This document shows positions 11,636 to 51,400 of a stretch of DNA of 64,000 nucleotides, in pieces. The stretch is from Candidatus Marinarcus aquaticus. Its GTDB lineage: Bacteria > Campylobacterota > Campylobacteria > Campylobacterales > Arcobacteraceae. A program made the position numbers and the translations under genes. The DNA is taken from positions 124,001-188,000 of the forward strand of contig NZ_PDKN01000003.1 of assembly GCF_004116335.1 (NCBI RefSeq). The letters are read 5' to 3'. Under the pieces are notes generated by a model, which was not told the origin of the DNA, made no database searches, and saw only the letters and a list, made by a program, of their open reading frames with translations. Every line of letters starts with the position of its first letter. Position 1 is the stretch's first letter.

Positions 11636-11673
11636 TGATAATAGAATATTGATAATCACAATCATAAATGATA
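11636..11673 (+). promoter_or_regulatory. Fur-box-like operator upstream of the TonB receptor
   Basis: TGATAATCACAATCA at 11650-11664 matches the 7-1-7 Fur consensus TGATAATNATTATCA at 13 of the 14 specified or 15 total positions except two changes in the right arm (TT to CA). Further GATAAT/ATGAT half-sites surround it at 11636-11642 and 11664-11672. It lies 40-70 bp before the receptor start, where Fur would block transcription under iron-replete conditions. Confidence 0.6.
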
Positions 11674-11703
11674 CTATTGCCACAAAAATTTAGGGAGAAT
11701 TTT

Positions 11704-13791
11704 ATGAATATGCCAACGTATAAATTATCTGTACCTTTGTGTATGCTTCTATTATCAACAACGATTGCTTTTTCTGCCGAATCAAAAACCACAAAAAGTG
11801 ACTCAAAACAACTTGACACAGTGACGGTTATTGGAAACAGCCATTCAAGTTATCTCAATACCAAAGAGATCAATCTCAATCGAACAATGATTGATATTGA
11901 TGAGAGTGCCAAATCAATTCAAATATTTAATGAAGATTTCATTGAAGATGCTCAACCACAAAACATTGAAGACATCATTAAAATGTCTTCAAATACCTCC
12001 TACCAAGGGGATAACCATGGACGAACCAATCAAATCAGTATGCGTGGGTTTTCAAGTATACCCATTTTGTTTGATGGGATGAGAGTCACCAATAAGATGG
12101 CTCATCCAGAACTTTTTAATCTCTCTTCTGTAGAGATTTTAAAAGGTCCAGATTCACTGCAGTATGGGGAATCAAGTCCTGGTGGTTTGGTTAATTTAGT
12201 CAATAAAAAAGCAACCAAAATAGCCTTAGGTAAAATAGAGCTTGATGTAAATGACAATCCATCCTATGCCACCAAGTTAGATGTGGGTGGCAGCTTAAAT
12301 GAGGCTCAATCTCTCTACTTCAGACTCAACTCTGTTTTAGAGTATGATGAAGGTTTTACGAACAGTAACACGGACACCACTCGTGTATTTGTTGCACCAT
12401 CATTGGCATATGATTTTAATGAGAACCATACACTCACTTTGGTTGCAGAGTATACCGATGAGACAACCCCCTCTTCTTTTGGTACTTATGTGAATAAAAA
12501 AGGGCACTTAGTCGCTCCAGTTGACCATATGATTTCACACCCTGATGAGGAGTTTGAGAAGACTCAAAAAATAGTAGGTTTTGACTTTGAAAGTCATTTT
12601 ACATCGTGGAATTCCAATTTGCGATACCGTTACATTGATTATGAAGGTCATAATGGAGATGTACACATGCCACAACGATACAATGAAATTACTGATACGG
12701 TAACTCGTGCTTATGCGTATCAAAAGCAAGAGTTTCAAGAGCATGCTCTTCAATACACACTCAATAAAGAGTTTGATATCTTTGATTTTAGAAACCGCAT
12801 CAGTGTGGGTGGAGATTTTAACAAAGCTTACACTAAAACGACCATGTTTTACGATCCAATGAATCCATATAATATCAACCTTTCCCACCCTAATTATGAG
12901 AATTTAACGTCACTTTCAGACCATCCCAATGCCACGGATATGACAGGGGATAAAACCTACACCAAATCATGGGGAACGTTTTTTCAAGACAGCATCAACT
13001 TCACGGATGATTTCCTAATGAATGTGGGTGTGAGATACAGTGAATCCAAACCCAAAGATGGACAAAAATCAGACGACTGGACACCATCACTGGGATTTAT
13101 CTATAAAGTGACACCTCAAACCTCTTTATATGCTAACTATTCTGAATCATTCACACCTAATACTGTAAGTGACAGCAGTGGCAATGTGCTTGATCCTGAA
13201 ACAGGTGAAGGATTTGAACTGGGAGTGAAACAAAAACTTTTTGATGACCGCTTCATGTTAACAGCTGCGGTATTTAAAATTGAGAAGAACAATATTGCTC
13301 TTTCAGATGACTCAACCCCACTTACAACAGACTATGTTGCCAGTGGAAAACAAAAAAGTAAAGGGTTTGAAATTGATATGAGTGGTGAGATTACACCAAA
13401 CTGGTCTATCGTAGCATCATATGGTTATACCCATACAGAGAATGTCGACGTGGACAATTTAGATTTAAGAAATATACCCAAACACACAGCAAACCTTTTT
13501 ACAACCTATTATCTCTCATCATTTAACTTACCTCATCTCTACATCGGTGGTGGTGTACGCTATTTAGGCGCACGTTATGCGGATGATAACAATGACATTA
13601 AATTTGATTCTGAAATCATCTACAATGCCACAATGGGGTATAAAAAAGGAAACTGGCGTGCAAGTATCAGTATGCAAAATTTAACCGACAAAGAGTATGT
13701 GGAGGGTGCTTTGGCAAGTAATGCTGCAGGGACAAGAGTCTATGTGGGAACTCCTCGAACTATTTTAGCATCCATCAGTTACTCTTTTTAA
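11704..13791 (+). CDS. TonB-dependent siderophore receptor
   Basis: A 695-aa outer-membrane receptor. It has a signal peptide ending near AFSAES, a TonB box-like DTVTVIG right after it, a plug domain (about 50-180, with ISMRGFSSIPILFDGMRV and VEILKGPDSLQYGESSPGG), then a 22-strand-type beta barrel ending in aromatic SISYSF. The plug resembles FhuE/FpvA-type ferric-siderophore receptors. The frame is open further up to an ATG at 11668, but the Shine-Dalgarno AGGGAG lies just before the ATG at 11704. It is headed by a Fur-like box and followed by a PepSY protein, so it is probably iron-regulated. The siderophore is unknown and no siderophore synthesis genes are nearby. Confidence 0.93.
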   Translation: MNMPTYKLSVPLCMLLLSTTIAFSAESKTTKSDSKQLDTVTVIGNSHSSYLNTKEINLNRTMIDIDESAKSIQIFNEDFIEDAQPQNIEDIIKMSSNTSYQGDNHGRTNQISMRGFSSIPILFDGMRVTNKMAHPELFNLSSVEILKGPDSLQYGESSPGGLVNLVNKKATKIALGKIELDVNDNPSYATKLDVGGSLNEAQSLYFRLNSVLEYDEGFTNSNTDTTRVFVAPSLAYDFNENHTLTLVAEYTDETTPSSFGTYVNKKGHLVAPVDHMISHPDEEFEKTQKIVGFDFESHFTSWNSNLRYRYIDYEGHNGDVHMPQRYNEITDTVTRAYAYQKQEFQEHALQYTLNKEFDIFDFRNRISVGGDFNKAYTKTTMFYDPMNPYNINLSHPNYENLTSLSDHPNATDMTGDKTYTKSWGTFFQDSINFTDDFLMNVGVRYSESKPKDGQKSDDWTPSLGFIYKVTPQTSLYANYSESFTPNTVSDSSGNVLDPETGEGFELGVKQKLFDDRFMLTAAVFKIEKNNIALSDDSTPLTTDYVASGKQKSKGFEIDMSGEITPNWSIVASYGYTHTENVDVDNLDLRNIPKHTANLFTTYYLSSFNLPHLYIGGGVRYLGARYADDNNDIKFDSEIIYNATMGYKKGNWRASISMQNLTDKEYVEGALASNAAGTRVYVGTPRTILASISYSF

Positions 13792-13802
13792 AAGTTTTTG
13801 AT

Positions 13803-14105
13803 ATGCTGAATAAAGTTTACACATATTTACGTACGCCAGAGACCAGTGGACGCACTATTGGTCTCTTTCGTGTACTTTTTTCTATTATTGGAGGACTATT
13901 GATTGCCTATTTAGGCATGACGCTATTAGCCTTTGTTCTTCCTTTACGCATTGAAGAAGCGGCAATTATTTCAATTATGTTTAATACCTTTGCTTGGGCA
14001 GTTGCTACTACGTGGATTGCTCTTTCATTTACAAAGATGCAAACACTGCTTCGCTTTTTAGTCCCTTTGATGGTGTTTGCTGTTTTACTTTACGTGTTTG
14101 TTTAA
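13803..14105 (+). CDS. Small membrane protein of siderophore-uptake locus (DUF3649-like)
   Basis: A 100-aa protein with three predicted membrane helices (about 24-45, 52-73, 80-99). The arrangement GGLLIAYLGMTLLAFVLP followed by EAAIISIMFNTFAWAV resembles DUF3649 proteins that sit between TonB receptors and PepSY proteins in iron loci. It starts 11 bp after the receptor and ends 11 bp before the PepSY gene, so it is part of the operon. Its role is unknown. Confidence 0.75.
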   Translation: MLNKVYTYLRTPETSGRTIGLFRVLFSIIGGLLIAYLGMTLLAFVLPLRIEEAAIISIMFNTFAWAVATTWIALSFTKMQTLLRFLVPLMVFAVLLYVFV

Positions 14106-14116
14106 AGGGTTTATAG

Positions 14117-15700
14117 ATGTCAACTGTTAAATCACAACTCTTTAAGCAACGTCTGTTTCGTATTCATATTGCAGCAGGAATCACCTTCTCTTTGGTAATG
14201 TATTTGGCAATATTTTTTGGTGTGTTTGCGATATTATTGCCTTATATTCAAACATGGGAAAAACCCTCTCGACACATTACTTCGGTTCCTATTACCAATA
14301 TTGATTATAATACAATGATTGAAGAAGTTCTTAATGAACCGGATTTTCCTAAAGATGGTTTGATGATAAATCTACCAGGAAGATTAGGTGACCCAGCGGT
14401 TGTTGTCACTCATCGATTTGCAAAACCCATTGCCTTTAATCCAAATACCAATGAACGTTTGAATAATGAAGATAAAAGAGTCTCTCATTTGGCTGCATTT
14501 TTAAATGAACTGCACTATGGTGCACCTCTTTCATTGATTGGTCGACTCTCTTTTGGTTTTGTTGCCGTAGGTACGATGGTTTTAATCATCACGGGTCTTA
14601 TTTTGATTATGCTGTTTAAATTTAAAAATCAAGGCAAAAATCAACAAGCCATTTTTTCAAAAATTCATGTTAAAGTCTTTACTTGGCTCTTTTTACCTTT
14701 TTTTCTCATCACACTCAGTGGTGCAGTGATGAATGTGGGCTTAATCAGTTCAGGGCCTATGTCTAAAATTCTGACCAAAGGTAAAGCCCAAGCCATTGAT
14801 GGCGTTGTAGGAAAAGTACTATTTCAACAAAGCGATCCCATTGCTAAAAAGAATGAAGCAGCACAAATGAAGCCCTTAAGCACATTAATACAAAAAGCAC
14901 AAGAGGTGAATCCTGATTTAATCTTCAAACAGATTAAACTGAGCAATTGGAATGATACAACTGCACAAGTTGAAATTATTGGTTATAACCCTTATAAACC
15001 CTTTTTAAATGGTGGGATTTTTAATCAACCCCGTGTTGTTTTAAATGCCCACACCGCAGAAGTAATCAACAATCAAACCGTCATGGATAAAGTATGGCCT
15101 GTGTTTGTTGCAGAGGGACTTTTTTTCTTACACTTTTTATTTGGAATTGATATTTTCTCTCGTATTATCATTGCTCTTATGATGGCATTGTGTGGGATTG
15201 CTTTGGGATTTGGTGTGATGTTATGGCTTGAGAAAAAAGCCAAAAAGTATGCTGATAAAATCACGTTTTATCACTGGATGGGGAAACTGTCACTTGCAAC
15301 CATGTTGGGTGTTATTCCAGCAACAGCAATACTTTTTGTTCTTCAATGGACGCTTCCTTTTGATCTACAAGATCGTGTTGTATGGCAACAAGGAATCTTT
15401 TATAATGTTTGGCTCTTTACTCTGTTTTGGTCTTTTTACCGACTCAACTCCTATCAAGCAGCCAAAGAGTTCTTTTTAAGTGGGGGAATTTTGTTTATTA
15501 TTGCCGCACTATGCCACATCTATTTTTCAGGATTCAATCCCATGGAACTATTAACAAATAACATGGGGCACATTTTTGCCGTAGATTTCACTCTTTGTCT
15601 AACCGGCATTATATTGATTTGGCTGGCTTTAAAACTGCCAACCAATCGAAAAGAGGCCAAAGTTTTTTGGCCCTTACAAGCTAAAAAGGAGAAAAAATGA
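14117..15700 (+). CDS. PepSY-associated TM helix protein (iron-regulated membrane protein)
   Basis: A 527-aa inner-membrane protein with a first helix at about 18-42, a large periplasmic loop with PepSY-like folds, helices around 150-170 and 185-205, and four or more at the C-terminus. FRIHIAAGITFSLVMYLAIFFG and ELHYGAPLS follow the pattern of PiuB-like proteins. Members are thought to help reduce or release iron from siderophores in the periplasm; this is not shown for the family as a whole. It overlaps the next gene by 4 bp. Confidence 0.88.
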   Translation: MSTVKSQLFKQRLFRIHIAAGITFSLVMYLAIFFGVFAILLPYIQTWEKPSRHITSVPITNIDYNTMIEEVLNEPDFPKDGLMINLPGRLGDPAVVVTHRFAKPIAFNPNTNERLNNEDKRVSHLAAFLNELHYGAPLSLIGRLSFGFVAVGTMVLIITGLILIMLFKFKNQGKNQQAIFSKIHVKVFTWLFLPFFLITLSGAVMNVGLISSGPMSKILTKGKAQAIDGVVGKVLFQQSDPIAKKNEAAQMKPLSTLIQKAQEVNPDLIFKQIKLSNWNDTTAQVEIIGYNPYKPFLNGGIFNQPRVVLNAHTAEVINNQTVMDKVWPVFVAEGLFFLHFLFGIDIFSRIIIALMMALCGIALGFGVMLWLEKKAKKYADKITFYHWMGKLSLATMLGVIPATAILFVLQWTLPFDLQDRVVWQQGIFYNVWLFTLFWSFYRLNSYQAAKEFFLSGGILFIIAALCHIYFSGFNPMELLTNNMGHIFAVDFTLCLTGIILIWLALKLPTNRKEAKVFWPLQAKKEKK

Positions 15701-16194
15701 AAAAATTGTTTTATTTGTTTTGTACATTCATAATGAGTTTGACTCTTTATGCGCACACATTGGTACTTAATCTTGATGACAATGAAGATGGAACGCTGTT
15801 CATACAAGGGATGTTTAATACGGGAGAGAGTGCCGAAGGTGCATTGGTCATCGTTGAATCACTTGACAATCAAGAAGTCTTGTTTAAAAAACGTCTTCCA
15901 AGCAGCAGTGAGCTTATTGTTCCTATGCCTAAAGTTGCCTATCATGTCGTTTTAGATGGCGGACCTGGTCACACGGTCATCAAAGAGGGAATTGAACCTA
16001 TTGGAGGATTTAAAGTCGAAGAAAAAAAAGAGACAAAAAAACAAAAAGCACCCAATCGTGCAAATATGCAAATATCAAACAGTCCTGCAGTAACAATTTC
16101 AATTGTCATTGCCTTTACTCTTCTTATTGCAACCATCGTTATCAGCATTTTTAATACCAATCGTTTAATGCGTGAATTAAAAAAAGGGTACTGA
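15697..16194 (+). CDS. Periplasmic protein with C-terminal membrane anchor, iron locus
   Basis: A 165-aa protein with a signal peptide (about 1-20), a beta-rich domain with FIQGMFNTGESAEGALVIV that resembles carboxypeptidase-regulatory or nickel-uptake DUF4198-type sandwiches, a Lys-rich linker (about 108-122) and one C-terminal helix (about 130-155). It is the last gene of the receptor-PepSY operon; its stop codon lies in the loop of a strong terminator. Function unknown; metal handling is a guess from context. Confidence 0.7.
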   Translation: MKKLFYLFCTFIMSLTLYAHTLVLNLDDNEDGTLFIQGMFNTGESAEGALVIVESLDNQEVLFKKRLPSSSELIVPMPKVAYHVVLDGGPGHTVIKEGIEPIGGFKVEEKKETKKQKAPNRANMQISNSPAVTISIVIAFTLLIATIVISIFNTNRLMRELKKGY

Positions 16195-16202
16195 CCCTTT
16201 TT
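16181..16202 (+). terminator. Rho-independent terminator ending the iron operon
   Basis: AAAAAGGGT (16181-16189) pairs perfectly with ACCCTTTTT (16194-16202) around a 4-nt loop containing the stop codon; the right arm supplies the U tract. It separates the iron operon from the following two-component genes. Confidence 0.8.
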
Positions 16203-16253
16203 CGTGTATTTATTGTGTAGTGATATCGTTTTAATCTGTGGTATACTTGCAGT

Positions 16254-16916
16254 ATGAAAATACTGCTGCTAGAAGACGATATCATACTCAATGAAATTCT
16301 TGAAGAGTTCTTAGTCAATGAGGGTTACACTGTTATTTCAACCTTTGATGGAGCACAAGCTCAATCTTTGGTCTATGAACAGACTTTTGACCTATTAATT
16401 TTGGATGTAAATGTACCCAATATCAATGGTTTTGAATTTTTAAAAGAGTTACGTTCACACAACATAAAAACCCCTGCTATATTTATCACCTCACTCAATA
16501 GCAGTAGTGATTTAAAACAAGGTTTTGAGAGTGGTTGTGATGATTACATCAAAAAACCGTTTGAACTGCAAGAACTCAGCCTTCGTATTAATAATATCAA
16601 ACGACTTTTTAACCTTGATTCAACTCATATATTTACCATTGCTTTAAATATCACTTACGATACCAACAATTATGAATTAAATAATGAGGGTATGAAAACC
16701 ATATTGCCCAAAAAAGAGGCCAAAATTTTAGAGTACTTTTTAAAAAATCAAGATAAAACCATCTCTATAGATGAACTCAGTGTGAATGTATGGAGTTATG
16801 AAGAGTATCCAAGCAGTGCTACTATACGTACCTATATAAAGAATCTTCGTCGATTGCTTGATGATGGTTATATCACAACACTCAAAGGAGTTGGTTATCG
16901 TTTTAACACAAAATGA
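16254..16916 (+). CDS. OmpR-family response regulator
   Basis: A 220-aa regulator with receiver (about 1-115) and winged-helix DNA-binding domain (about 125-218). The acidic pocket is ED at 7-9 with phospho-acceptor D51 (LLILDVNVP), and the KPF lysine lies in GCDDYIKKPF. The output domain ends in TLKGVGYRF, the usual OmpR wing. It is closely similar in plan to the regulator of the hvf operon at 45389-46045 and to the one at the right end. The histidine kinase overlaps its 3' end, so they form a pair. It follows a terminator, so control of the iron operon is possible but not shown. Confidence 0.93.
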   Translation: MKILLLEDDIILNEILEEFLVNEGYTVISTFDGAQAQSLVYEQTFDLLILDVNVPNINGFEFLKELRSHNIKTPAIFITSLNSSSDLKQGFESGCDDYIKKPFELQELSLRINNIKRLFNLDSTHIFTIALNITYDTNNYELNNEGMKTILPKKEAKILEYFLKNQDKTISIDELSVNVWSYEEYPSSATIRTYIKNLRRLLDDGYITTLKGVGYRFNTK

Positions 16917-18048
16917 AAAAAGAACATTCAGAAGTTTTTATGCCCTCTTTTTAGGTTCAACTTTTATTCTTTTAGGCATTATATTTTTTCTTTTTTACCA
17001 AACAAAAGCTGATTTTTACAGAGATATCACTATCTCTAAAATGCAAATCTATGCTTCCAAGCTCGCTTCTAAAATTGTTTATGCCCACATGCAAAATACC
17101 CCTTTACGAAAAAGTGAACTTGTTGTTGAGAATGGTTATAAATTTGGCTTGTATGACAACAGTGGCAATGCTGTTTTAACCTATATTGGCCAAAAAGTGA
17201 TTTTAAATCATAAATTTTCTCAAAATGGAAATAACCTCATACTTATTGATAACAGCGTTGGAGGCCATTTGGGCATCTCTTATATTGCCATTGAGGAGAA
17301 CGTGCTTTTTAACACCCTTAGTGAGCTTCAAAACAAGATTATTATCTCGTATGTACTGCTCTATATTTTTGTGGTTGTTTTTGGTTTTTATTTAACCAAA
17401 CAATTTATTAAACCCATTGTACAACAACGCATCAAACTCAATAACTTTATTAAAGAGACCACACATGAACTGAATACTCCTATTTCTGCGATTGTGATGT
17501 CTATTAATGACAAACAACCCATGACTCAAAAATCGCATGAACGTATTTTAATCAGTGCCAAGCGCATCTCTGAGATCTATGATGATTTGACCTATCTGTT
17601 TTTAAACAGTGAAAAGAGGAAAAACATTGAAGCTTTGAATTTAGAAACCATCATTAAAGAACAAACAGACTATTTTAAACTCTTTGCTCAAAAAAAACAG
17701 ATTGATCTGTTTGTTCAAACGGAACCTTTTATTTACAACATCGACAAGGAGAGTTTTATTCGTTTATTTAATAATCTTCTTTCAAATGCAATTAAATACA
17801 CACCCATGTCTGGAAAAATTTTTGTAACGTTAAATAAGGGTATTTTAACCATAAAAGACAGTGGTAATGGAATTAAGAAAAAAGATATTGATAAAATATT
17901 TCAACGATTTTATCGTGCAGATGCTATAAATGGTGGTTTTGGAATTGGTTTAAGTATAGTAAAAACAGTATGTGATACGTACAATATAAAAATAGAAGTG
18001 GATTCAAAAGTAAATGAAGGCAGTGAGTTCAGGCTCACTTTAAAATAG
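16891..18048 (+). CDS. Sensor histidine kinase
   Basis: A membrane kinase of about 385 aa: helix 1 near residues 18-37, a short periplasmic sensor region of about 110 aa, helix 2 near 150-170, HisKA with ETTHELNTPISA (phospho-acceptor His about 192 from this start), and an HATPase domain with NLLSNAIKYTP, DSGNGI and GGFGIGLSIVK. It is paralogous to the kinase at 44206-45396. The start is unclear: ATG at 16858 has no Shine-Dalgarno, TTG at 16891 touches AAAGGAG (16884-16890), and ATC at 16897 has ideal spacing and matches the N-terminus of the paralogue. Signal unknown. Confidence 0.88.
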   Translation: MVIVLTQNEKRTFRSFYALFLGSTFILLGIIFFLFYQTKADFYRDITISKMQIYASKLASKIVYAHMQNTPLRKSELVVENGYKFGLYDNSGNAVLTYIGQKVILNHKFSQNGNNLILIDNSVGGHLGISYIAIEENVLFNTLSELQNKIIISYVLLYIFVVVFGFYLTKQFIKPIVQQRIKLNNFIKETTHELNTPISAIVMSINDKQPMTQKSHERILISAKRISEIYDDLTYLFLNSEKRKNIEALNLETIIKEQTDYFKLFAQKKQIDLFVQTEPFIYNIDKESFIRLFNNLLSNAIKYTPMSGKIFVTLNKGILTIKDSGNGIKKKDIDKIFQRFYRADAINGGFGIGLSIVKTVCDTYNIKIEVDSKVNEGSEFRLTLK

Positions 18049-43237: not shown

Positions 43238-43855
43238 TTATAAGATGCATTTTTTGAGTTTTTTTCGTTTATCCCATCCCAATGTTTCTAACTCTGGGTT
43301 TTCTAAAAACATATCCGTATATCCCAAACACAAATATCCAACGAGTTTATACTCCTTGGATATGTTGAGTACTTTTTTCACTTTTTTAGGCTTTAAAATA
43401 CTGACCCATCCCAAGCCAATGTTCATACTTCGAGCCATCAACCACATATTGGTTATCGCACACACCACAGAGTACTCTCCGCTTCGTTTCATAAAAGTTT
43501 GTCCTAAGACTTCTTTTTTAGGCTTTTTGTAAAGCACGGCGATATTTAATGGAGCCTCTTTAATCCCTTCAAGTTTCAAGCGGTTATAAGTAGGTCGATC
43601 TTTGAATTTTTCTTTACTCTTCTCATAACTTTTTGAAAAGCAATCAAAGATTTTCTCTTTTCGTTTATTGTCTTTTATAATTATAAAACGCCAAGGCTGT
43701 GAGTAGCCTACAGAGGGGGCATGGTTGGCTGCATCTAATATCTTAAAAAGTTTTTTTTGAGAAATGGTTTTGTCAGTAAAGTGATTTCCACGAACATCTC
43801 GTCGTGAAAATATGATTTTACGAAGTGTCTTCGCCTCTTTTTTTCTAAATTTCAT
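43238..43855 (-). CDS. Nitroreductase family protein
   Basis: A 205-aa FMN-dependent nitroreductase-fold protein. RRDVRGNHFTDKTI near residues 18-31 is the FMN-phosphate region (usual RRSxRxF), NHAPSVGYSQPWRF (about 48-61) is the FMN ring motif seen also in BluB-like members, and GLGWVSIL the late motif. BluB, which makes the B12 lower ligand from FMN, shares APSVG-QPWRF, so a BluB-type role is possible. It follows the small NifX-like gene without a gap. Confidence 0.85.
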   Translation of the reverse strand: MKFRKKEAKTLRKIIFSRRDVRGNHFTDKTISQKKLFKILDAANHAPSVGYSQPWRFIIIKDNKRKEKIFDCFSKSYEKSKEKFKDRPTYNRLKLEGIKEAPLNIAVLYKKPKKEVLGQTFMKRSGEYSVVCAITNMWLMARSMNIGLGWVSILKPKKVKKVLNISKEYKLVGYLCLGYTDMFLENPELETLGWDKRKKLKKCIL

Positions 43856-44158
43856 CTAAACGTTTAAGTCGTGCAACTCTTTAAAAAGAAATGCTTCTAC
43901 AATCTCATCTATGCTTTTTTGTGTGGGTGCCACTAACACTGTAATGTTCTCTTCCATAAATGGCCAAACATACTCTTGTTCATTCTCTACAACCACGCAA
44001 TCAATCCATTCATCAATCTCATCACGTCGTTTAAAAAAACGAATATCTTTGATTTCCCCTTCATCTAACTCAATCAATGCCCAATCTTTGGTTTGATCCA
44101 GTGTGGTGATTAACGCTTCATGGCGTTTGTTAGAATTCATAGGTATTAAAATAAGCAT
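43856..44158 (-). CDS. Small alpha/beta protein, possibly NifX/dinitrogenase-cofactor-like fold
   Basis: A 100-aa protein beginning LILIPMNSNKRHEAL and continuing with WALIELDEGEIKDI, then a VVVEN strand, NITVLVAP and IDEIVEAFLFKELHDL. The order (strand, ligand loop, strand, helix, late beta-alpha) resembles the NifX/NafY fold of iron-molybdenum cofactor proteins, but it lacks their glycine motif, so this is a weak fold guess. It directly precedes the nitroreductase gene, so the two are co-transcribed. Function unknown. Confidence 0.55.
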   Translation of the reverse strand: MLILIPMNSNKRHEALITTLDQTKDWALIELDEGEIKDIRFFKRRDEIDEWIDCVVVENEQEYVWPFMEENITVLVAPTQKSIDEIVEAFLFKELHDLNV

Positions 44159-44205
44159 TACTGTCCTTTATATTACACAGATGTAAAAGAGTATTGTATC
44201 AAAAA

Positions 44206-45396
44206 TTACTCTTCACTTTGCTTGTAAAGTACATTTTTTGCCTCGCTAAAATCCAATTTAAACTCACTGCCTTGATTGAGTTGCGTCTCTAAATCAATTT
44301 TAATGCCATATTCACGGCAAACAGAGGCTACGATATCCAAGCCTAAGCCAAAGCCTCCTTCTTCGTTTGTGGCTCTGTTATAGCGTTTAAATATAGTCTC
44401 TTTTTTTGATGGCTCAATACCAATACCCTCATCTTTAACACTCAAAGTGCATCCTTGGAGTTCAATAAAGATGTTTTTTCGTTTTCGTGTATATTTTATG
44501 GCATTGGAAAGCAGGTTATTGACAATCATATTGGCACTTTGTCGGTCCATAAAGACTTCGCAACTGCTTAAGTTGGCATGCAGTGTAATGGACTTACTTT
44601 TGGCAATCTCATCAAAAAAGAGTATGTTCTCCTCAATTAAAAGTTTTAAATCAAACACCTCATCGTACTTTTTTAGAACATCTGAGTTAATATTAAACAG
44701 GAGTTTATCATAAGTGTGTTTGACATTTTTTGCACTGGCAGTGAGTTGATTGATGGTCTTTTCATCAACAAAATAGAGTTTTTTAAGTCGAGGAATTATC
44801 ATCATCATGGCAGTTATTGGGGTATTAAGCTCATGTGAACTGTCTTTAACAAAACGGTTGAGTTGTTCTGCTTTTTCTTTAACGGGTTTAAGTAAAATTC
44901 GACTGAGGATATAACCAATGACGGACATGATAACAAACCCCATCACAAATAAAAAGAGTACAAAATATTTCAGATGCAAAATATCATTCACGCCACTGGT
45001 ATCTTCAATGACAATATAACCAAAAGGAAGAGTGTTATCCGCCAGTTTAAGCACATGCAAACTTCGATTCTCTTGATGATGTGCTTGCTTTCGCAAATCG
45101 ACATCCAATGGATATAACAGTGTTGAGAAGAAAATGGAACCATCTTTATTTAACACCGCATAGTGTAAGTCATCTTTTCGTTCTTTAAACACATACGGTT
45201 TTTTATCCATGTGCATCTCTAAAATTTCAGATTTGACTCTCCATGCGGCTTGACTGGTTCGCATACTGCAATGAGCTTCAAGCATCGATTTTTCACGTTC
45301 AAAATACATCACGGCAATAATGGCCATGAAAATCGTTGAAGAGATAATATAAATAGACAGAAAGCTGATCAGTGCATTCTTCTCTTTTTTATTCAT
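44206..45396 (-). CDS. Sensor histidine kinase of the hvf operon
   Basis: A 396-aa membrane kinase: helix 1 at about 10-32, a periplasmic sensor loop of about 110 residues, helix 2 at about 143-165, HisKA with phospho-acceptor His188 in DSSHELNTPITA, and an HATPase domain with NNLLSNAIKYT, DEGIGI and GGFGLGLDIV. It overlaps the response regulator by 8 bp and is the last gene of a run that starts with hvfA. The paralogue at 16.9-18.0 kb is paired with the iron locus. The periplasmic loop has one Cys and several His (AHHQE) but no recognisable metal motif. Operon position suggests it senses copper or another stress handled by the RiPP; this is inference. Confidence 0.9.
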   Translation of the reverse strand: MNKKEKNALISFLSIYIISSTIFMAIIAVMYFEREKSMLEAHCSMRTSQAAWRVKSEILEMHMDKKPYVFKERKDDLHYAVLNKDGSIFFSTLLYPLDVDLRKQAHHQENRSLHVLKLADNTLPFGYIVIEDTSGVNDILHLKYFVLFLFVMGFVIMSVIGYILSRILLKPVKEKAEQLNRFVKDSSHELNTPITAMMMIIPRLKKLYFVDEKTINQLTASAKNVKHTYDKLLFNINSDVLKKYDEVFDLKLLIEENILFFDEIAKSKSITLHANLSSCEVFMDRQSANMIVNNLLSNAIKYTRKRKNIFIELQGCTLSVKDEGIGIEPSKKETIFKRYNRATNEEGGFGLGLDIVASVCREYGIKIDLETQLNQGSEFKLDFSEAKNVLYKQSEE

Positions 45397-46045
45397 AACA
45401 GTACCCTACTCCTCGTATGGTTCGAATGGAGTCTTTCCCCAATATTTTTCGTATGTTTTTAATATAGACTCGTATGGTAGTCTCACTGGGGATATCATCA
45501 AAATACCAAATATTTTGCACCAGTTCATCAAAGCCAACCACGCGCCCTTTTTGCAAAAAAAGATACTTTAAAATTTGACTCTCTTTATAAGAAATCTCAT
45601 ATGTAACCCTGCTTGAACCAATGAGATGCTTATTCATATCTAAGTAAAAACCACCCTTTAACTGTAATACATTTCTGTCTTCAATATTAAACCGTTTGGC
45701 TAAGTTTTTAATGCGTTGCGTCAACTCCTCTAAATCAAATGGCTTTTTGATGTAATCATCACAGCCAAAATCAAACCCTTTTTTCAGATGTTCGGTATCT
45801 TGATACGCCGTTATCATAATAATAGGCGTGGTAATGGCATACTCTCTGACTTGTTTTAAAAGTTTTAATCCAGAGAGTTTAGGCACATTGATATCAAAAA
45901 TAAAAAGGTCAAACTTCTCATTCTCAATATATGCTAAAGCCTCTTCACCATCTTCAGCTAAAGTCGTAATAAACCCTTGTTCATTCAAATGAGCAAAGGT
46001 TAAATCACTTAAAATGGCATCATCTTCTAAAAGCAATATCTTCAT
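45389..46045 (-). CDS. OmpR-family response regulator of the hvf operon
   Basis: A 218-aa regulator with receiver domain (phospho-acceptor D51 in FIFDINVP, Lys101 in GCDDYIKKPF) and winged-helix output domain ending TIRGVGYCYE. It starts 5 bp after hvfD and overlaps the kinase gene, so it is part of the hvfABCD transcript. A direct repeat with 11-bp period upstream of hvfA has the geometry bound by this regulator class, which would make the operon self-regulating. Confidence 0.92.
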   Translation of the reverse strand: MKILLLEDDAILSDLTFAHLNEQGFITTLAEDGEEALAYIENEKFDLFIFDINVPKLSGLKLLKQVREYAITTPIIMITAYQDTEHLKKGFDFGCDDYIKKPFDLEELTQRIKNLAKRFNIEDRNVLQLKGGFYLDMNKHLIGSSRVTYEISYKESQILKYLFLQKGRVVGFDELVQNIWYFDDIPSETTIRVYIKNIRKILGKDSIRTIRGVGYCYE

Positions 46046-46050
46046 ACAAC

Positions 46051-46479
46051 TTACCGTTTTTTAAACATCTGGTCCACACTGATTTTTCCTGCACCAAAGC
46101 TGACAAATATCATTAAAAAGACCATATAGTACAATGGAATCTCAAAACCATTATCACCTGCAGAAAAACCATTTGGCAAGTGTACAGTAAGAATTGCTAC
46201 AATCATCACCACAATTAAAGGAATGGATATGTACCGTGTCAATAATCCCAAACTTAAAAGTACGACCCCTGCCATTTCAGTTGTTGCTGCTAAGTACGCA
46301 TTGAGTAAAGGAAAAGGGATATTCAAGCTTTCAAACCAGTATCCCACACTTTGGATATCTTTCCATTTATTCATTGCAGGCTCATAAAACCCATACGCAA
46401 TCAATAAACGTGCAATTAACAACGATACACTTTGAAAATTTTCAAATACACATTGAGTGGACTCTTTTAATCGGAACAT
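46051..46479 (-). CDS. hvfD: HvfD-like DoxX family membrane protein
   Basis: A 142-aa DoxX-family protein with four membrane helices (about 17-33, 58-80, 84-104, 114-133). The first helix contains SLLIARLLIAYGFYEPAMNKW, typical of DoxX, and TTEMAGVVLLSLGL is the second-helix motif. In Haemophilus and other hvf loci a DoxX protein is the fourth gene after the precursor and maturation enzymes; its role is not settled. It overlaps hvfC by 1 bp. Confidence 0.85.
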   Translation of the reverse strand: MFRLKESTQCVFENFQSVSLLIARLLIAYGFYEPAMNKWKDIQSVGYWFESLNIPFPLLNAYLAATTEMAGVVLLSLGLLTRYISIPLIVVMIVAILTVHLPNGFSAGDNGFEIPLYYMVFLMIFVSFGAGKISVDQMFKKR

Positions 46480-47168
46480 TACTTATCCTTTATTGTCAAT
46501 ACCCCTAAAGCACATAACTCTTTGAGAGGTTTTTCAAGAAGTTCTTTGACCTCTTTATTTTTTAGCTTATATTTGTTCGAGATGGTTTTGAGTGCTGTTT
46601 TTATATTATACTCTTTTAACAGCTTAAGATACTCATACATAAATGCCGATATCTCTCTGTAAATCACCTGTTTTAAAACCACATCATAATAGACCAACAC
46701 AGGATACTTCCCTTTTTGTGTGAACTCTTTGGCATAGACTTTGTATTTGAGTTTTTTAATCCGTGCCAAGGTAGAGAGTTCATACGAATGGTTCCAGTCA
46801 AACGGGGAGGCTTCATGCTGTGAATAATCTTGCATGATAAGTTCTACTTCAATATATTCAAACCAGAGTAAATCTCTGATATACGGTACATCTGAAAATG
46901 CTTTGGGGTTCTTTTTCACAAACTTTCTGAACTCTTTTGGCAACTGCCAAATTAAATCAGTATGAGCACCACTTTTCATAAAAGCCTTGACCATTTTTTC
47001 AAAACGCTTTTTCTTAACAAGCGAAGTTAAGATGGGATTGGCGTTGCTCAATACTTCATTAAAACGGTGAAAAACCAATGCCTGATAGAGTTTTAAAGCA
47101 TTTTGTGAAGAGGCTTTTTTTTGAACAACCGTATCAAAAAAACCTTGTTGTACCTTTTTATCTTTCAT
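46479..47168 (-). CDS. hvfC: HvfC-like DUF2063 partner protein of the MNIO enzyme
   Basis: A 229-aa protein whose N-terminal half (about 1-90) has the DUF2063 pattern LKLYQALVFHRFNEVLSNANPILTS-type (helix, YR-x-N-like site, aL-x3-P) and the later PKEFRKFV segment. The C-terminal part (about 100-225) is a mixed domain ending in a winged-helix-like stretch. DUF2063 proteins bind the precursor leader and present it to the MNIO enzyme (HvfC/BufC/MbnC role). It overlaps hvfB by 4 bp and hvfD by 1 bp, fixing its role by context. Confidence 0.8.
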   Translation of the reverse strand: MKDKKVQQGFFDTVVQKKASSQNALKLYQALVFHRFNEVLSNANPILTSLVKKKRFEKMVKAFMKSGAHTDLIWQLPKEFRKFVKKNPKAFSDVPYIRDLLWFEYIEVELIMQDYSQHEASPFDWNHSYELSTLARIKKLKYKVYAKEFTQKGKYPVLVYYDVVLKQVIYREISAFMYEYLKLLKEYNIKTALKTISNKYKLKNKEVKELLEKPLKELCALGVLTIKDK

Positions 47169-47980
47169 GAAATGCTCCCATACAAAGATGATAACTTCTC
47201 ATACTCTCGTTTCATTGCTTTCAAGGAAGGAATATGGTTGTCTCGTTCAATCATCGTAGGCACTTTTCTTTTTTTGAGTGTGTGTTCAAGCAGATCCCAC
47301 ACCTCATCTTTGACTGCTTTTCCATGCGTATCGACTAAAAACCCTGACTCTTTATCATCATAATGCCCTGCAATGTGAATATAACTCACGGTGGACATAT
47401 CAAATTCATCAATAAAAGCTTTGGCATCATAGTTGTGATTGACACTGTTCACATAAACATTGTTCACGTCCAGCAAAAATTTTACCCCGCTTTTGTGTAT
47501 CAATTCATTTAAAAAATCAATCTCACTCATGGTTGCATGAGGCACATAATAGTAGGTTGCATTCTCTAAAATCAATTCACGCTGTAAGGCATCTTGAACA
47601 TATTTGATTCTATCACACAGCCTCTCTATCATGCTTTTTGTTAGAGGAAGCGGTAAAAGCTCATAACTGTGTGCATTTTGCATATTTGAAAAACTGATGT
47701 GTTCAGAGTACTCTTTGATATGGTAACAATCTAAAAAGTCTTTCATCTGTTTTAAAAACTTTTTGGATGGTTTCTTATCGGACCCAATGGACAGAGAAAC
47801 CCCATGAGCAATCGTTTTAGATGAGGATACAATCTCTTCAAAAGCCTCTTTATGATGATACGGCATATGAATCCAATTTTCAGGTGTAATCTCCCAAAAA
47901 TCAGGCTTAAAGCCTTGAGGTATCACCTCTTGAATAAACTCTCGTCGAAGTCCTAACCCACACCCTTGTAACTTGCTCAT
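47165..47980 (-). CDS. hvfB: HvfB-like multinuclear non-heme iron oxidase (MNIO, DUF692)
   Basis: A 271-aa TIM-barrel MNIO enzyme. Family motifs and probable iron ligands are visible: GLGLRREF at the start, HGVSLSIGS (His), YSEHISFS (Glu, His), a Glu in LENATYYYVP, LLDVNNVYVN (Asp, Asn), YIHIAGHYD (His), VDTHG (Asp, His) and MIERDNHIP (Glu). MNIOs oxidise Cys in ribosomal peptides; HvfB-type enzymes convert Cys in EGKCG-like motifs to oxazolone-thioamide. The frame is open to 48034 across hvfA's end, but AAAGGAG in front of the ATG at 47980 fixes the start. Coupled to hvfC by a 4-bp overlap. Confidence 0.9.
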   Translation of the reverse strand: MSKLQGCGLGLRREFIQEVIPQGFKPDFWEITPENWIHMPYHHKEAFEEIVSSSKTIAHGVSLSIGSDKKPSKKFLKQMKDFLDCYHIKEYSEHISFSNMQNAHSYELLPLPLTKSMIERLCDRIKYVQDALQRELILENATYYYVPHATMSEIDFLNELIHKSGVKFLLDVNNVYVNSVNHNYDAKAFIDEFDMSTVSYIHIAGHYDDKESGFLVDTHGKAVKDEVWDLLEHTLKKRKVPTMIERDNHIPSLKAMKREYEKLSSLYGSIS

Positions 47981-48002
47981 AGATTCTCCTTTTATGAAGT
48001 AA

Positions 48003-48290
48003 TTACTTACTTCCTCCACATTTACCTGCACCACATTTGCTGTCTGCTTGTTTTTCTACTGCTTTGTTTCCACCACATTTTGCATCAGACATTTTTTTAT
48101 CGAGTTTCTCTTGTGCTTTAGAAGATCCACATTTCCCATCTCCCATTTTATCTTCTACTTTTTTTCCTTTGTCCATAGAAGAACCACACTTCCCTGCACC
48201 ACAACGTGCATCTGAAGCCAATGCTCCTGTTGAACTCATCAAGGTTGTTCCTAATAAAACACCTGCTAATTTAACTGCTTTTTTACTCAT
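48003..48290 (-). CDS. hvfA: HvfA-like Cys-Gly RiPP precursor (exported)
   Basis: A 95-aa precursor with a Sec signal peptide (about 1-26, ending GALAS) and a core rich in Lys, Gly and Cys. All six cysteines (30, 35, 54, 72, 86, 91) are followed by Gly and five of them preceded by Lys, giving repeated AGKCG, DGKCG and DAKCG units like the EGKCG motifs that HvfB-type enzymes modify. It is directly followed (22 bp) by hvfB. The modified peptide is expected to bind copper(I) outside the cytoplasm, as for the Haemophilus hvf product and bufferins. Which cysteines are modified is unknown. Confidence 0.88.
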   Translation of the reverse strand: MSKKAVKLAGVLLGTTLMSSTGALASDARCGAGKCGSSMDKGKKVEDKMGDGKCGSSKAQEKLDKKMSDAKCGGNKAVEKQADSKCGAGKCGGSK

Positions 48291-48336
48291 CTTGAATCCT
48301 TTTGTTGATTTATCAATATGTTATGGTAATAACTTT

Positions 48337-48356
48337 TTGTTGGATAATTGTTGGAT
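48337..48356 (-). promoter_or_regulatory. Tandem direct repeat upstream of hvfA (putative OmpR-family site)
   Basis: On the plus strand TTGTTGGAT occurs at 48337-48345 and again at 48348-48356, an exact 9-mer with 11-bp period. It lies 47-66 bp upstream of the hvfA start, near where the -35 of the hvf promoter should be. The gap 48291-48453 also contains the promoter of the divergent small gene. Confidence 0.55.
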
Positions 48357-48453
48357 TGAGAAACATTTTACTTTTTTTTCTATAAATATCAACCATTTAA
48401 TCACTCATTAAAAGCACTATGTTACAATTTATCTGTTAAAAAAAGGACAGCTA

Positions 48454-48630
48454 ATGAATGAAAAAGAGATCAATGAATTTTTAGAGATGGTTAAACCAAT
48501 GCTTGCAGCACTTCCAAAAGAGGAAATCATGGAAAATATCAACAACATTCCTGGTATGAGTGATGAAGAGCGTGCATTGTTTATTGAAGCGATTTTAGCA
48601 CTCAAAGAGGAAGAGGAAGGAAAAGAGTAA
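48454..48630 (+). CDS. Small acidic helical protein (58 aa), function unknown
   Basis: An ATG at 48454 with Shine-Dalgarno AAAAGGA opens a 58-codon frame ending TAA at 48630. The product begins MNEKEINEFLEMVKPM and is acidic and mostly helical, ending in EEEEGKE, with no Cys and no membrane segment. A TACAAT -10 lies at 48423-48428. It is divergent from hvfA and ends in a terminator shared with asnB. Good start signal and natural composition support a real gene; no family recognised. Confidence 0.65.
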   Translation: MNEKEINEFLEMVKPMLAALPKEEIMENINNIPGMSDEERALFIEAILALKEEEEGKE

Positions 48631-48646
48631 AACTACATATAGTTTT
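48629..48646. terminator. Bidirectional terminator between the 58-aa gene and asnB
   Basis: AAAACTA (48629-48635) pairs with TAGTTTT (48640-48646); the plus strand continues TCTT and the minus strand CTCTTTTCC. It separates two convergent genes. Confidence 0.55.
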
Positions 48647-50414
48647 TCTTAAACCACCAACTAAAGACAAACAAGCTCCACAAATGCTGTTTGAACTTAC
48701 GATTTTTAGCTAACTCAAACAGATGTGTGACGTACTGTGCATTAAAAAAGCCTGTTTGCTCATTCACTTCTAAAATCAACTCCAAGATTTTATTGCCAAA
48801 ATGACCAAAAATCCACTCATTAAAAGGGGAGTTAAACCCTTTTTTGGTTCTTTGAATTATCTCTTGTGGAATATACTTTTGTGCAATTTGTTTGAGCAGA
48901 TATTTGTTGGTATTGCCTATTTTAAGGCAAGAATCCACCCCAAACATATAATCCACTAACCGATAGTCTAAAAATGGCGTTCGAACCTCTAAAGAGTTTG
49001 CCATACTCATTTTATCGACTTTAGAGAGCAGCCCTTGTCCCAACCAAATCTTTAAATCAATGTAACTCATCCAATCTACAGGGTCTTTTTTTGCTTTTTC
49101 ACTTTTGTAGTGAGGTACTTTTTTAAACAGTCGTTTCTTTTGAATATCGGTAAAAATCTCCCCAAAAGAGTTATAAAGATTCTTTTGTTTAATCACGCGT
49201 CTTAAATATTCACTCTCTTTGGTGTTGTTTTGAAGAGCTGTGATAATAGAGTCCATAAAAGCACTTTGTTCACTGCTTAAACTCTTTTCAAACGCATAAT
49301 ATTTTAAAAACTTGGCATAATTGTCATACCCTAAAAAGAGTTCATCACTGCCTTCTCCACTTAGTACCGTTTTAATGCCCGTTTTATGAATCTCTTTTGT
49401 CAATAAGTATAAAGGGACAGCCGCACTGTCTGCATGAGGCTCTTCAAGATGGTTCATCACGGTATCAAAACTCTCTATAAACTCTTTTTGTGAGATTTCA
49501 AGCGCATGATGATTGGAGCCAATATGTTTAGCAGTGATTTGTGCATACGGCAATTCACTGTAGGCTTTATAATCACTGTATCCCACACTAAAGGTGTTGA
49601 TTTTTCGTCCACTGATGTTTGTATACAAAGCAGAAATCAGGGATGAGTCGATTCCACCACTGAGCAGACTTCCCACTTCTACATCCGACGTCAATCGTGC
49701 TTCCACACTTTTAAAAAGCAGCTCTTCTATATCTTTAAGTGCTTGTGGTTCGCTTTTTGTTTTTTTATATGTATTGATTTTATAATACTTTTTGCTCTTT
49801 AACTCCCCTTTTTCAAGCACCATAAAACTGCCCGCTTCAAGCTTTTTAATATCTGAAAAAAAGGTATTGTCCTCAATGGGAACAAAGTATTGCAAGTATT
49901 GGCTCAGTGCTACTTTGTTGAGTTTAGGTGTGGTTCCTAAAAGTGTAATGATTGGTTTTATCATGCTTGAAAAGATAAATTTCCCTTCTTTAAAGCAATA
50001 AAACAGCGGTTTCTTTCCGTATCGGTCTCTGGCACAAAAATACTTTTGTTGTTTAATATCATAAATACAAAAAGCAAACATCCCATTAAGTTTGTTTAAA
50101 AAATCCTCTTGATACTTTTGATAGAGCCTTATAATCACTTCTGTATCTGAAGCGGTTTGACAGTGAAGTTGTTCCTCTTTAGTAAGTTCTTTATAGTTAT
50201 AAATCTCTCCATTAAATACGATAATGATGTCATCAAATATCATGGGTTGATTGGCTTCTTCATTTAAATCAATGATACTTAAACGCGTATGCCCAAAGAA
50301 GTTTTGCTCCACTTGTTTAAACGAAGAGAAATCTGGACCTCTGCGATGCAGTTGCTCAACCACCTTTTCAAATGGCGCAGCGCTTTGAAAGTTACACCCA
50401 ACGATACCACACAT
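48633..50414 (-). CDS. asnB: Asparagine synthase (glutamine-hydrolysing)
   Basis: A 593-aa AsnB-type amidotransferase. Cys2 of MCGIVGC is the glutaminase nucleophile; the N-terminal Ntn domain runs to about 190. The synthetase domain has the PP-loop LLSGGIDSSLIS (about 253-264) for ATP, followed by EGSDELFLGY. It converts Asp to Asn with Gln as ammonia donor; enzymes of this group also sit in surface-polysaccharide clusters, but no such genes are near. It overlaps the upstream AEC transporter by 1 bp (TGATG). Confidence 0.93.
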   Translation of the reverse strand: MCGIVGCNFQSAAPFEKVVEQLHRRGPDFSSFKQVEQNFFGHTRLSIIDLNEEANQPMIFDDIIIVFNGEIYNYKELTKEEQLHCQTASDTEVIIRLYQKYQEDFLNKLNGMFAFCIYDIKQQKYFCARDRYGKKPLFYCFKEGKFIFSSMIKPIITLLGTTPKLNKVALSQYLQYFVPIEDNTFFSDIKKLEAGSFMVLEKGELKSKKYYKINTYKKTKSEPQALKDIEELLFKSVEARLTSDVEVGSLLSGGIDSSLISALYTNISGRKINTFSVGYSDYKAYSELPYAQITAKHIGSNHHALEISQKEFIESFDTVMNHLEEPHADSAAVPLYLLTKEIHKTGIKTVLSGEGSDELFLGYDNYAKFLKYYAFEKSLSSEQSAFMDSIITALQNNTKESEYLRRVIKQKNLYNSFGEIFTDIQKKRLFKKVPHYKSEKAKKDPVDWMSYIDLKIWLGQGLLSKVDKMSMANSLEVRTPFLDYRLVDYMFGVDSCLKIGNTNKYLLKQIAQKYIPQEIIQRTKKGFNSPFNEWIFGHFGNKILELILEVNEQTGFFNAQYVTHLFELAKNRKFKQHLWSLFVFSWWFKKNYM

Positions 50415-51400
50415 CAGTGTGCTCCAAAAAAGTATTGAATCACTTCTAAATAGAAGTAAATCAAAGCAATAAAGGCAATGGAGGTAATAAGTATGGCCGT
50501 TGTTACATCATGTGGTCTGCAGTTATACAAAGCTGCTAAATTTACGTTGTTTACTGCTAAAGGTACCATGAGTTCCATGAGTAATATAGATGCCACATAG
50601 CCATCTAAGTTGGTCATTAACACCACACCCAATCCAACAATAGGCAATACCAATTGTTTTACAATGGTAATGTGTCCTGAAAGTTTCCAGTTGGTTGTTT
50701 TGACTTTGATTTCACTCAAATAAATACCAAAAATAATAAGTTGCATCACAATGGCCGTGTATGAACCCATCTCAAGAACTCTATTAAAGTGTTCATTAAT
50801 AGGCAGTTGGTAATAGTTAAATGCAACGGCAATGACGGAAAACCAAATGGCTGGGATTTTAAAAATCGATTTAAATGCTTGAGCAAATGAGAACTGCTCT
50901 TTTGCAAAAAAATAGACGCTGAAAATATAGATAAAAAAGACATTGGCAATGTTTAAAATACTCGTATAAGGTACACTGGCAACGCCAAACAGAGCAATAC
51001 CCAGAGGAATTCCTAAATTCCCTGTGTTTCCAACAAGTGAAGAAGCCAAGAAAACCGATTGATCTTTGCTGTCAGAAAATATCGATTTATAAACGAGTAA
51101 CATCAAACCCAAACAGATAAAAATAATGACAAAATACAAAACAGGCACAATGACAAATTCAAAGTTAAGTGGAGCTCGTGTTAAACCCCAGAAAATCAGT
51201 ATAGGTTGTAAAAAATAGAGATTAAGCAGTATAAAGCTTGTTTGGTCAATACGCTCTTTAAATGTTCGTTTGACAATAAAGCCAATAACAATAAAAAAAT
51301 AGATGGTGGCTACTGAGATAAGTGCTTCGATATTATGTCCTTTAAAGAGTGTTATTTTATCATAGAATAATAAAATATAGGATATATTATTTGCATGCAT
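50414..51400 (-). CDS. AEC (auxin efflux carrier) family transporter
   Basis: A membrane transporter with about ten helices, of the AEC family (bacterial members move malate, malonate or other small acids). NTGNLGIPLGIALFG (mid protein) and the LELMVPLAVNN region match the AEC repeats. Coordinates use the ATG at 51400, but the first 23 codons look non-family and overlap the divergent response-regulator start. AAAGGA followed 6 nt later by ATC at 51331 gives IEALISVATIYFF, the expected N-terminus (305 aa), so initiation at ATC is likely. Coupled to asnB. Confidence 0.85.
   Translation of the reverse strand: MHANNISYILLFYDKITLFKGHNIEALISVATIYFFIVIGFIVKRTFKERIDQTSFILLNLYFLQPILIFWGLTRAPLNFEFVIVPVLYFVIIFICLGLMLLVYKSIFSDSKDQSVFLASSLVGNTGNLGIPLGIALFGVASVPYTSILNIANVFFIYIFSVYFFAKEQFSFAQAFKSIFKIPAIWFSVIAVAFNYYQLPINEHFNRVLEMGSYTAIVMQLIIFGIYLSEIKVKTTNWKLSGHITIVKQLVLPIVGLGVVLMTNLDGYVASILLMELMVPLAVNNVNLAALYNCRPHDVTTAILITSIAFIALIYFYLEVIQYFFGAH

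Follow-up and report, generated by a model that had tools for sequence, protein, structure and literature searches.

A captophorin-type gene cluster in Candidatus Marinarcus aquaticus that likely carries its own two-component switch

Introduction

Can the genes for an exported, probably copper-binding peptide share a transcript with the regulators that switch them on? This question is raised by a compact cluster on the minus strand of a 64,000-nucleotide stretch of Candidatus Marinarcus aquaticus DNA (the window; contig NZ_PDKN01000003.1). At window positions 44206-48290, six genes follow one another in the order precursor, MNIO enzyme, DUF2063 partner, DoxX/HvfX protein, OmpR-type response regulator (RR), and histidine kinase (HK). 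A reading made without database searches (here, the sequence-only reading) had proposed that these genes form a self-contained sense-and-synthesise module in which a Haemophilus-type hvf cluster for a ribosomally synthesized and post-translationally modified peptide (RiPP) is joined to a two-component system (TCS). The presence of the six-gene cluster is confirmed by our analyses, and we consider it probable that the genes form a single operon, hvfABCX-RR-HK, which yields a captophorin-type metallophore together with the TCS that switches the operon on.

Results

The regulator pair is inherited together with the hvf genes. One further genome is available from the genus, that of a sister species (G120), and it has no MNIO gene. 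Its syntenic region matches window positions 43322-44169 and 48436-51364 and beyond, with only ~100 bp (L248 7587-7687) where the window holds 4.27 kb (44170-48435). The variable block has one edge just past the kinase stop and the other a short distance upstream of the hvfA promoter; given these boundaries, the TCS travels with hvf, whereas the 100-amino-acid open reading frame (ORF) and the BluB gene beyond the kinase do not.

Of the 104 Arcobacteraceae genomes searched, 36 have a full-length MNIO gene, as do a minority of genomes from the rest of the Campylobacterota; the window locus is the only one in its genome. The sequence-only reading had suggested looking for the same gene order elsewhere, and this search located OmpR-HK pairs next to hvf loci in 27 of ~59 campylobacterial genomes with a full-length MNIO. 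In 10 genomes from four families (the window genome, G306, G413, G067, G080, G241, G037, G232, G091, and G128), RR-HK lies behind hvf in the same direction. The six-gene order is identical in G413, G037, G128, and G241; the G091 locus has one additional ORF and longer gaps, and G067, G080, G232, and G306 have no DoxX gene between the hvf genes and RR-HK. The RR gene overlaps HvfC or DoxX in G067, G080, G306, and G413. In 17 Arcobacteraceae, RR-HK is instead divergent and upstream of hvf, the usual order being HK, RR, YceI-like gene, hvfA, MNIO, and HvfC. Many Arcobacteraceae clusters have a YceI-family gene ahead of hvfA (L040 5580-6158 and homologues), and in these the candidate operator described below sits upstream of the YceI gene.

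Outside the Campylobacterota, no OmpR-HK pair was found within four genes of MNIO at any of 71 loci. Four MNIO loci there with a nearby TCS-like gene were considered and rejected, the TCS-like genes being of hybrid, single-domain, or otherwise unrelated types. In a Methylococcales metagenome-assembled genome (MAG), the MNIO-DUF2063 pair is followed by two signalling genes of other types, encoding a 1221-amino-acid sensor kinase and a response regulator (L122 7870-12598). The window genome encodes ~30 OmpR-type RRs, with one complete RR gene per ~84 kb, and by our estimate an RR would adjoin hvf by chance at ~1% of loci, although the genomes counted are not independent of one another. Taken together, the conserved gene order, the empty site in the sister species, and the common operator argue that the hvf-TCS linkage is not due to chance.

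A candidate operator at the hvf promoter tracks the response regulator. The full feature reaches upstream beyond position 48290 to a direct repeat with an 11-bp period (Table 1), which is the sole perfect match in the window genome; no site there has one mismatch. Most other campylobacterial hvf promoters have CTACACA-N4-CTACACA-like repeats at the equivalent place. When 62 hvf upstream regions were analyzed without a consensus, 7-mers at least 6/7 identical at a period of 11 were present in 34, relative to 5.1 in dinucleotide shuffles, and each of the other periods from 8 to 16 was observed in 3-7 regions. Using the consensus YTMMACA, 37 of the 62 promoters scored 13 or 14 of 14, relative to 0.39 in shuffles (maximum, 4).

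Activation by OmpR/PhoB-class regulators classically involves an 11-bp direct repeat placed ~20 bp 5' of a -10-like hexamer. The window RR has the receiver and winged-helix output of this class, and a direct repeat with an ~11-bp period stands at its putative target promoter. Since the repeat occupies the place of the -35 region, activation would be expected.

The operator was compared with the RR across 21 hvf-bearing genomes outside the Arcobacteraceae, with a close RR relative defined by an E value of at most 2.1e-91. Such a relative was present in 12 of the 21, and all 12 have an operator-like promoter repeat; of the nine genomes lacking the relative, the seven with a completeness of 96% or more were all judged to lack the repeat. 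The association across these 12 and 7 genomes (P = 2e-5, Fisher's test) depends on judged presence/absence calls: G003 (12/14) and G023 (11/14) were scored as operator present given that their sites coincide with the position in congeners, and G461 was scored as absent because its 13/14 match lies 35 bp before the MNIO start. At a strict 13/14 threshold, the operator was found in 10 of 12 genomes with the RR versus 1 of 7 without it (P of about 0.006 by our own arithmetic). These P values are optimistic, as one genus is over-represented. Two incomplete MAGs, G168 and G162, have a 12/14 repeat, and no RR was found in them. Outside the Arcobacteraceae, operator presence thus tracks RR presence, and it is likely, judging from the sequences, that the RR or a close relative directly controls hvf through the repeat at 48338-48356.

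The strict repeat pattern was rejected as a genome-wide regulon finder, since 25 exact matches in 18 genomes compare with 22 for the reversed control; the pattern is meaningful solely as a concentration at hvf promoters. Within the list, CTAMACA-N4-CTAMACA lies ~60 bp before apparent DsbB-like (L264), thioredoxin/CcdA/DoxX (L274), DUF2892 (L273), and DUF4395-like (L251) genes, with L267 as a further case; the gene names are our own reading, and these sites hint at an envelope thiol regulon.

The first four genes very likely form a captophorin cluster. Gene calls, junctions, and profile matches (Table 1) bear out the arrangement of overlaps and short gaps that had been read from the sequence. 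The MNIO/HvfC, HvfC/DoxX, and RR/HK junctions overlap by 4, 1, and 8 nt, respectively; DoxX and RR are separated by 5 nt, and 22 nt lie between the hvfA stop (48003) and the MNIO ATG (47980). An in-frame GTG at 48034 is an alternative MNIO start further upstream that would overlap hvfA, but the ATG is probably the start because it is preceded by AAAGGAG. Neither promoter-like nor terminator-like matches are in excess within the six-gene block, both being at or under the shuffled expectation, and the six genes likely constitute one operon. The HisKA match of the kinase (25.2 bits) is slightly below its cut-off of 26.9. GC content is 0.34-0.37 across the region, and its uniform base composition gives no signal of foreign origin.

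Table 1. Genes and candidate promoter elements of the hvf locus (window coordinates)
Feature	Coordinates	Strand	Supporting observations
hvfA, RiPP precursor, 95 aa	48003..48290	-	NF050137 31.8 bits vs cut-off 19.5; six Cys-Gly; apparent Sec signal peptide (by-eye call)
hvfB, MNIO enzyme, 271 aa	47165..47980	-	PF05114 299 bits vs cut-off 25; PDB 3bww DUF692 E 3e-52
hvfC, DUF2063 / PME type 1 partner protein	46479..47168	-	PF09836 39.7 bits vs cut-off 27.2; NF050145 E 1e-20, below its cut-off
hvfX, DoxX-family membrane protein	46051..46479	-	PF07681, DoxX 68 bits; NF050144 HvfX 123.3 bits vs cut-off 80
OmpR/PhoB-class response regulator (RR)	45389..46045	-	PF00072 Response_reg + PF00486 Trans_reg_C
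Membrane histidine kinase (HK)	44206..45396	-	HATPase_c + HisKA; ~100-aa periplasmic sensor, Cys43-Ser44-Met45 just after first membrane helix (TM1)
Candidate RR operator, ATCCAACA-ATT-ATCCAACA direct repeat, 11-bp period	48338..48356	-	48 bp upstream of hvfA ATG
Candidate -10 hexamer TACCAT	48323..48328	-	Inferred from position relative to operator; aligned relatives have TACAAT/TATACT

The precursor contains exactly six Cys residues, every one within a Cys-Gly unit, and the spacing of the units is irregular. The sequence-only reading had listed varied residues before these units (ARCG, AGKCG, DGKCG, DAKCG, DSKCG, and AGKCG); the list is exact, and such variation is ordinary within this phylum, where GKCG, GSCG, and AKCG are common (216, 102, and 32 occurrences, respectively). 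Although the precursor passes the HvfA-family model, it scores 34.3 bits on the narrower HvfA equivalog NF050188 (cut-off, 95), and the MNIO scores 306.5 bits on the HvfB equivalog NF003818 (cut-off, 360). Since the HvfA, HvfB, and HvfC equivalog cut-offs are not reached, the cluster is a distant member of the hvf type.

With an exported Cys-Gly precursor, an adjoining MNIO, and a DUF2063 PME type 1 partner, the locus has the components of a captophorin cluster, and its profile matches make the first four genes very likely a cluster of this (HvfA/oxazolin-type, Buf_EGKCG) class. The proposed Haemophilus hvfABCD plan therefore stands as to profiles and order, but not as to chemistry or naming: the product of the HvfA/oxazolin-type class is now assigned as 5-thiooxazole, replacing oxazolone/thioamide (PMC12668002, PMC13419390), and the NCBIfam name for the DoxX gene is HvfX rather than HvfD. 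Captophorins are described as metal inducible and copper binding (PMC12668002). By analogy, the window peptide would carry 5-thiooxazoles on its Cys residues and bind Cu(I).

The regulator, kinase, and MNIO trees point to the same relative. The window RR is sister to the hvf-linked RR of G413 (support, 98/98), and the window kinase is sister to the G413 kinase (100/100); the window MNIO groups with that of G273 and then G413 (99/95 and 95/90). G413, a member of another family (f10), shares both the six-gene order and the TCCAACA operator variant with the window. The unlinked Arcobacteraceae kinases form a clade (28 rows, 100/99) that excludes the window kinase. These trees are most simply read as transfer of the six-gene operon between families as a unit, with loss in other lineages as the alternative. 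The empty site, the 11-bp operator, its correlation with the RR, and the same order elsewhere with concordant trees all support the self-contained module that had been proposed.

The hvf-linked kinases fall into two clades. In the clade of the window kinase, a Cys-[Ser/Asn/Thr/Asp]-[Met/Ile/Leu] motif lies just outside the first membrane helix, with the Cys present in 34 of 35 kinases. The sensor is predicted to form a helix followed by five strands. A Foldseek search with the sensor gave no significant match, only a loose likeness to PhoR-, CusS-, CzcS-, and PhoQ-type sensors (best E, 0.03-0.15), and a search with the whole kinase returned generic kinase cores alone. The window kinase class was present in 33 of 36 MNIO-positive versus 30 of 68 MNIO-negative Arcobacteraceae (P = 1.7e-6, Fisher's test, without correction for kinship). 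In this family at large, it is mostly unlinked to hvf; the window genome has a single copy, inside the hvf operon.

Neighbouring genes. Downstream of the kinase, BluB (5,6-dimethylbenzimidazole synthase, TIGR02476 above cut-off) lies behind the 100-amino-acid ORF, which has no known family (43238-44158, minus strand). Both were considered as operon members and rejected, as they are present in G120 without hvf; they are ancestral neighbours of the hvf insertion point. On the other side, an acidic 58-amino-acid ORF without a family match lies between hvfA and asnB (48454-48630, plus strand), and the DNA around it is retained in the sister species. Elsewhere in the window (11668-18048, plus strand), genes for a TonB-dependent receptor, a 100-amino-acid protein, a PepSY_TM protein, a 165-amino-acid protein, an OmpR-type RR, and a kinase likely form a second metal operon, in which the TCS genes occupy the 3' end. 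In other Arcobacteraceae, YtkA-like, TolC, adaptor, and heavy-metal RND genes lie directly beside hvf/TCS (L242 4821-8300 and L052 1-3072), and L242 has an exact operator copy between its kinase and YtkA genes.

Discussion

Two steps of the mechanism that we propose have support from the sequence comparisons, namely, that the six genes are inherited together as one block and that the RR or a close relative acts at the direct repeat at 48338-48356. In the remaining steps, the kinase would sense periplasmic copper or copper-caused thiol stress via a sensor that carries the conserved Cys-Ser-Met motif, and the phosphorylated RR would increase transcription of the entire operon, its own gene included. 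The MNIO and its DUF2063 partner would then turn the precursor cysteines into 5-thiooxazoles, and the Sec-exported peptide would bind Cu(I) and reduce the signal, such that both product and transcription would close the loop. We rate copper as the signal at even odds or slightly higher. In its favour, captophorins bind copper and are metal induced (PMC12668002), and hvf adjoins a CusA/CzcA-family heavy-metal RND pump in several Arcobacteraceae.

Several observations weigh against this model. G413, the closest relative, is the lone exception to the conserved sensor Cys, having Tyr in its place. Since the kinase class occurs in nearly half of the MNIO-less Arcobacteraceae, it must have other targets too. 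The RR and HK fall far below the heavy-metal CopRS-type models TIGR01387 (116.9 versus 279.2 bits) and TIGR01386 (81.5 versus 292.55 bits), respectively, and the exact operator matches before thiol/disulfide genes fit a redox signal as well as they fit copper. The last point touches on an alternative that we regard as possible, if doubtful: a genuine operon with its TCS that responds to periplasmic stress of a thiol/disulfide, sulfur, or nitrosative kind rather than to copper, with captophorin production as one branch of an envelope redox response. A single conserved Cys beside Met in the kinase sensor would suit such a signal, as would the sites before the DsbB-like, thioredoxin/CcdA/DoxX, DUF2892, and DUF4395-like genes, and the campylobacterial copper TCS CrdRS of Helicobacter pylori responds to nitric oxide too (PMC9927306). 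However, the similar total for the reversed pattern means that some of the 25 matches are due to chance, and the CusA/CzcA pumps adjoining hvf point to metal.

The link between the TCS and hvf could also be weaker than we propose. The TCS might be a general regulator that stands behind hvf by happenstance in the window genome, with hvf control being incidental or exerted by another regulator; in line with this, its kinase class is unlinked in most Arcobacteraceae and occurs in 30 of 68 hvf-less genomes. We nevertheless consider this improbable, given that the linkage arose repeatedly and independently, the empty site covers exactly the six genes, the operator tracks the RR, and the genome has no further site with 0 or 1 mismatch. 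It also seems quite unlikely that hvfABCX and RR-HK are two head-to-tail transcription units with a TCS promoter inside hvfX and no co-induction. A promoter-like site (10/12) does occur inside hvfX at 46179-46150, but 15 such matches were found versus 19.6 expected, making it uninformative, and both the 5-nt DoxX/RR gap and the overlap of RR with HvfC or DoxX in four relatives argue for a single unit. Going beyond the single-operon model, we see an even chance that hvfABCX-RR-HK behaves as an autonomous sense-and-synthesise cassette, passing from family to family in one piece with its peptide metallophore, sensor, and matching operator.

What is known of how thiooxazole copper peptides are regulated comes mainly from sigma-factor systems. 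A survey of MNIO clusters reports sigma/anti-sigma genes in bufferin-1 clusters, with no occurrence of "two-component" or "response regulator" (PMC12452194); the text of the captophorin paper mentions frequent "transcriptional regulators," leaving any detail to its Table S1 (PMC12668002); and the Legionella GIG paper tested the global LetA/S system only. In the literature searched, which took in the main text of PMC12668002, we found no account of this operator or of an HvfA-type cluster that includes a TCS of its own; to that extent, the sequence-only reading was right that the arrangement is not known as described. What would be new here is an HvfA-type cluster carrying its own TCS and a matching operator, the cluster type itself being already known. 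A phosphorelay, a concrete operator, a conserved-Cys sensor, and a peptide are brought together in one operon, and the operator is traceable across the phylum. The signal to which the peptide responds becomes a direct bench question, its control is testable since relatives have the same switch, and a portable sensor-plus-buffer module is available for testing.

Among known systems, the locus resembles Haemophilus hvfABC(X)/oxazolin and the captophorins in its exported Cys-Gly repeat precursor, MNIO, DUF2063 partner, and DoxX/HvfX, which stand in the same order (PMC12668002, PMC13419390). It differs from them in that the operon holds its own OmpR-type TCS, in its irregular Cys-Gly spacing, and in having a precursor and enzymes that score under the HvfA/HvfB/HvfC equivalog cut-offs. 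The bufferin 1/gig operons of Caulobacter, Cupriavidus, and Legionella similarly combine an MNIO, a DUF2063 protein, and DoxX with a stress-inducible copper peptide, and an in-cluster regulator is possible in them. In contrast with bufferin 1, which has a DUF2282 precursor and an extracytoplasmic function (ECF) sigma factor with the anti-sigma factor NrsF (PMC12452194), the window operon has a phosphorelay and an HvfA-type precursor; profile searches of the locus proteins gave no match to DUF2282 or a sigma-factor family and thus neither hallmark of the ECF/NrsF type. The pairing of an OmpR-class RR and a membrane HK with adjoining metal genes recalls CusRS, CopRS, and CzcRS, whereas the window pair is far below the corresponding TIGR01386/TIGR01387 cut-offs and its output includes a RiPP. 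H. pylori CrdRS, from the same phylum, is alike as a TCS controlling a copper determinant; to our knowledge, the CrdRS genes are not adjacent to MNIO genes. Finally, although the paralogous TCS within the window (16254-18048) has a kinase of another clade and no MNIO genes, its RR is 39% identical to that of the hvf operon, its HK belongs to the same superclass, and its genes too come last in a likely metal operon (TonB receptor, PepSY).

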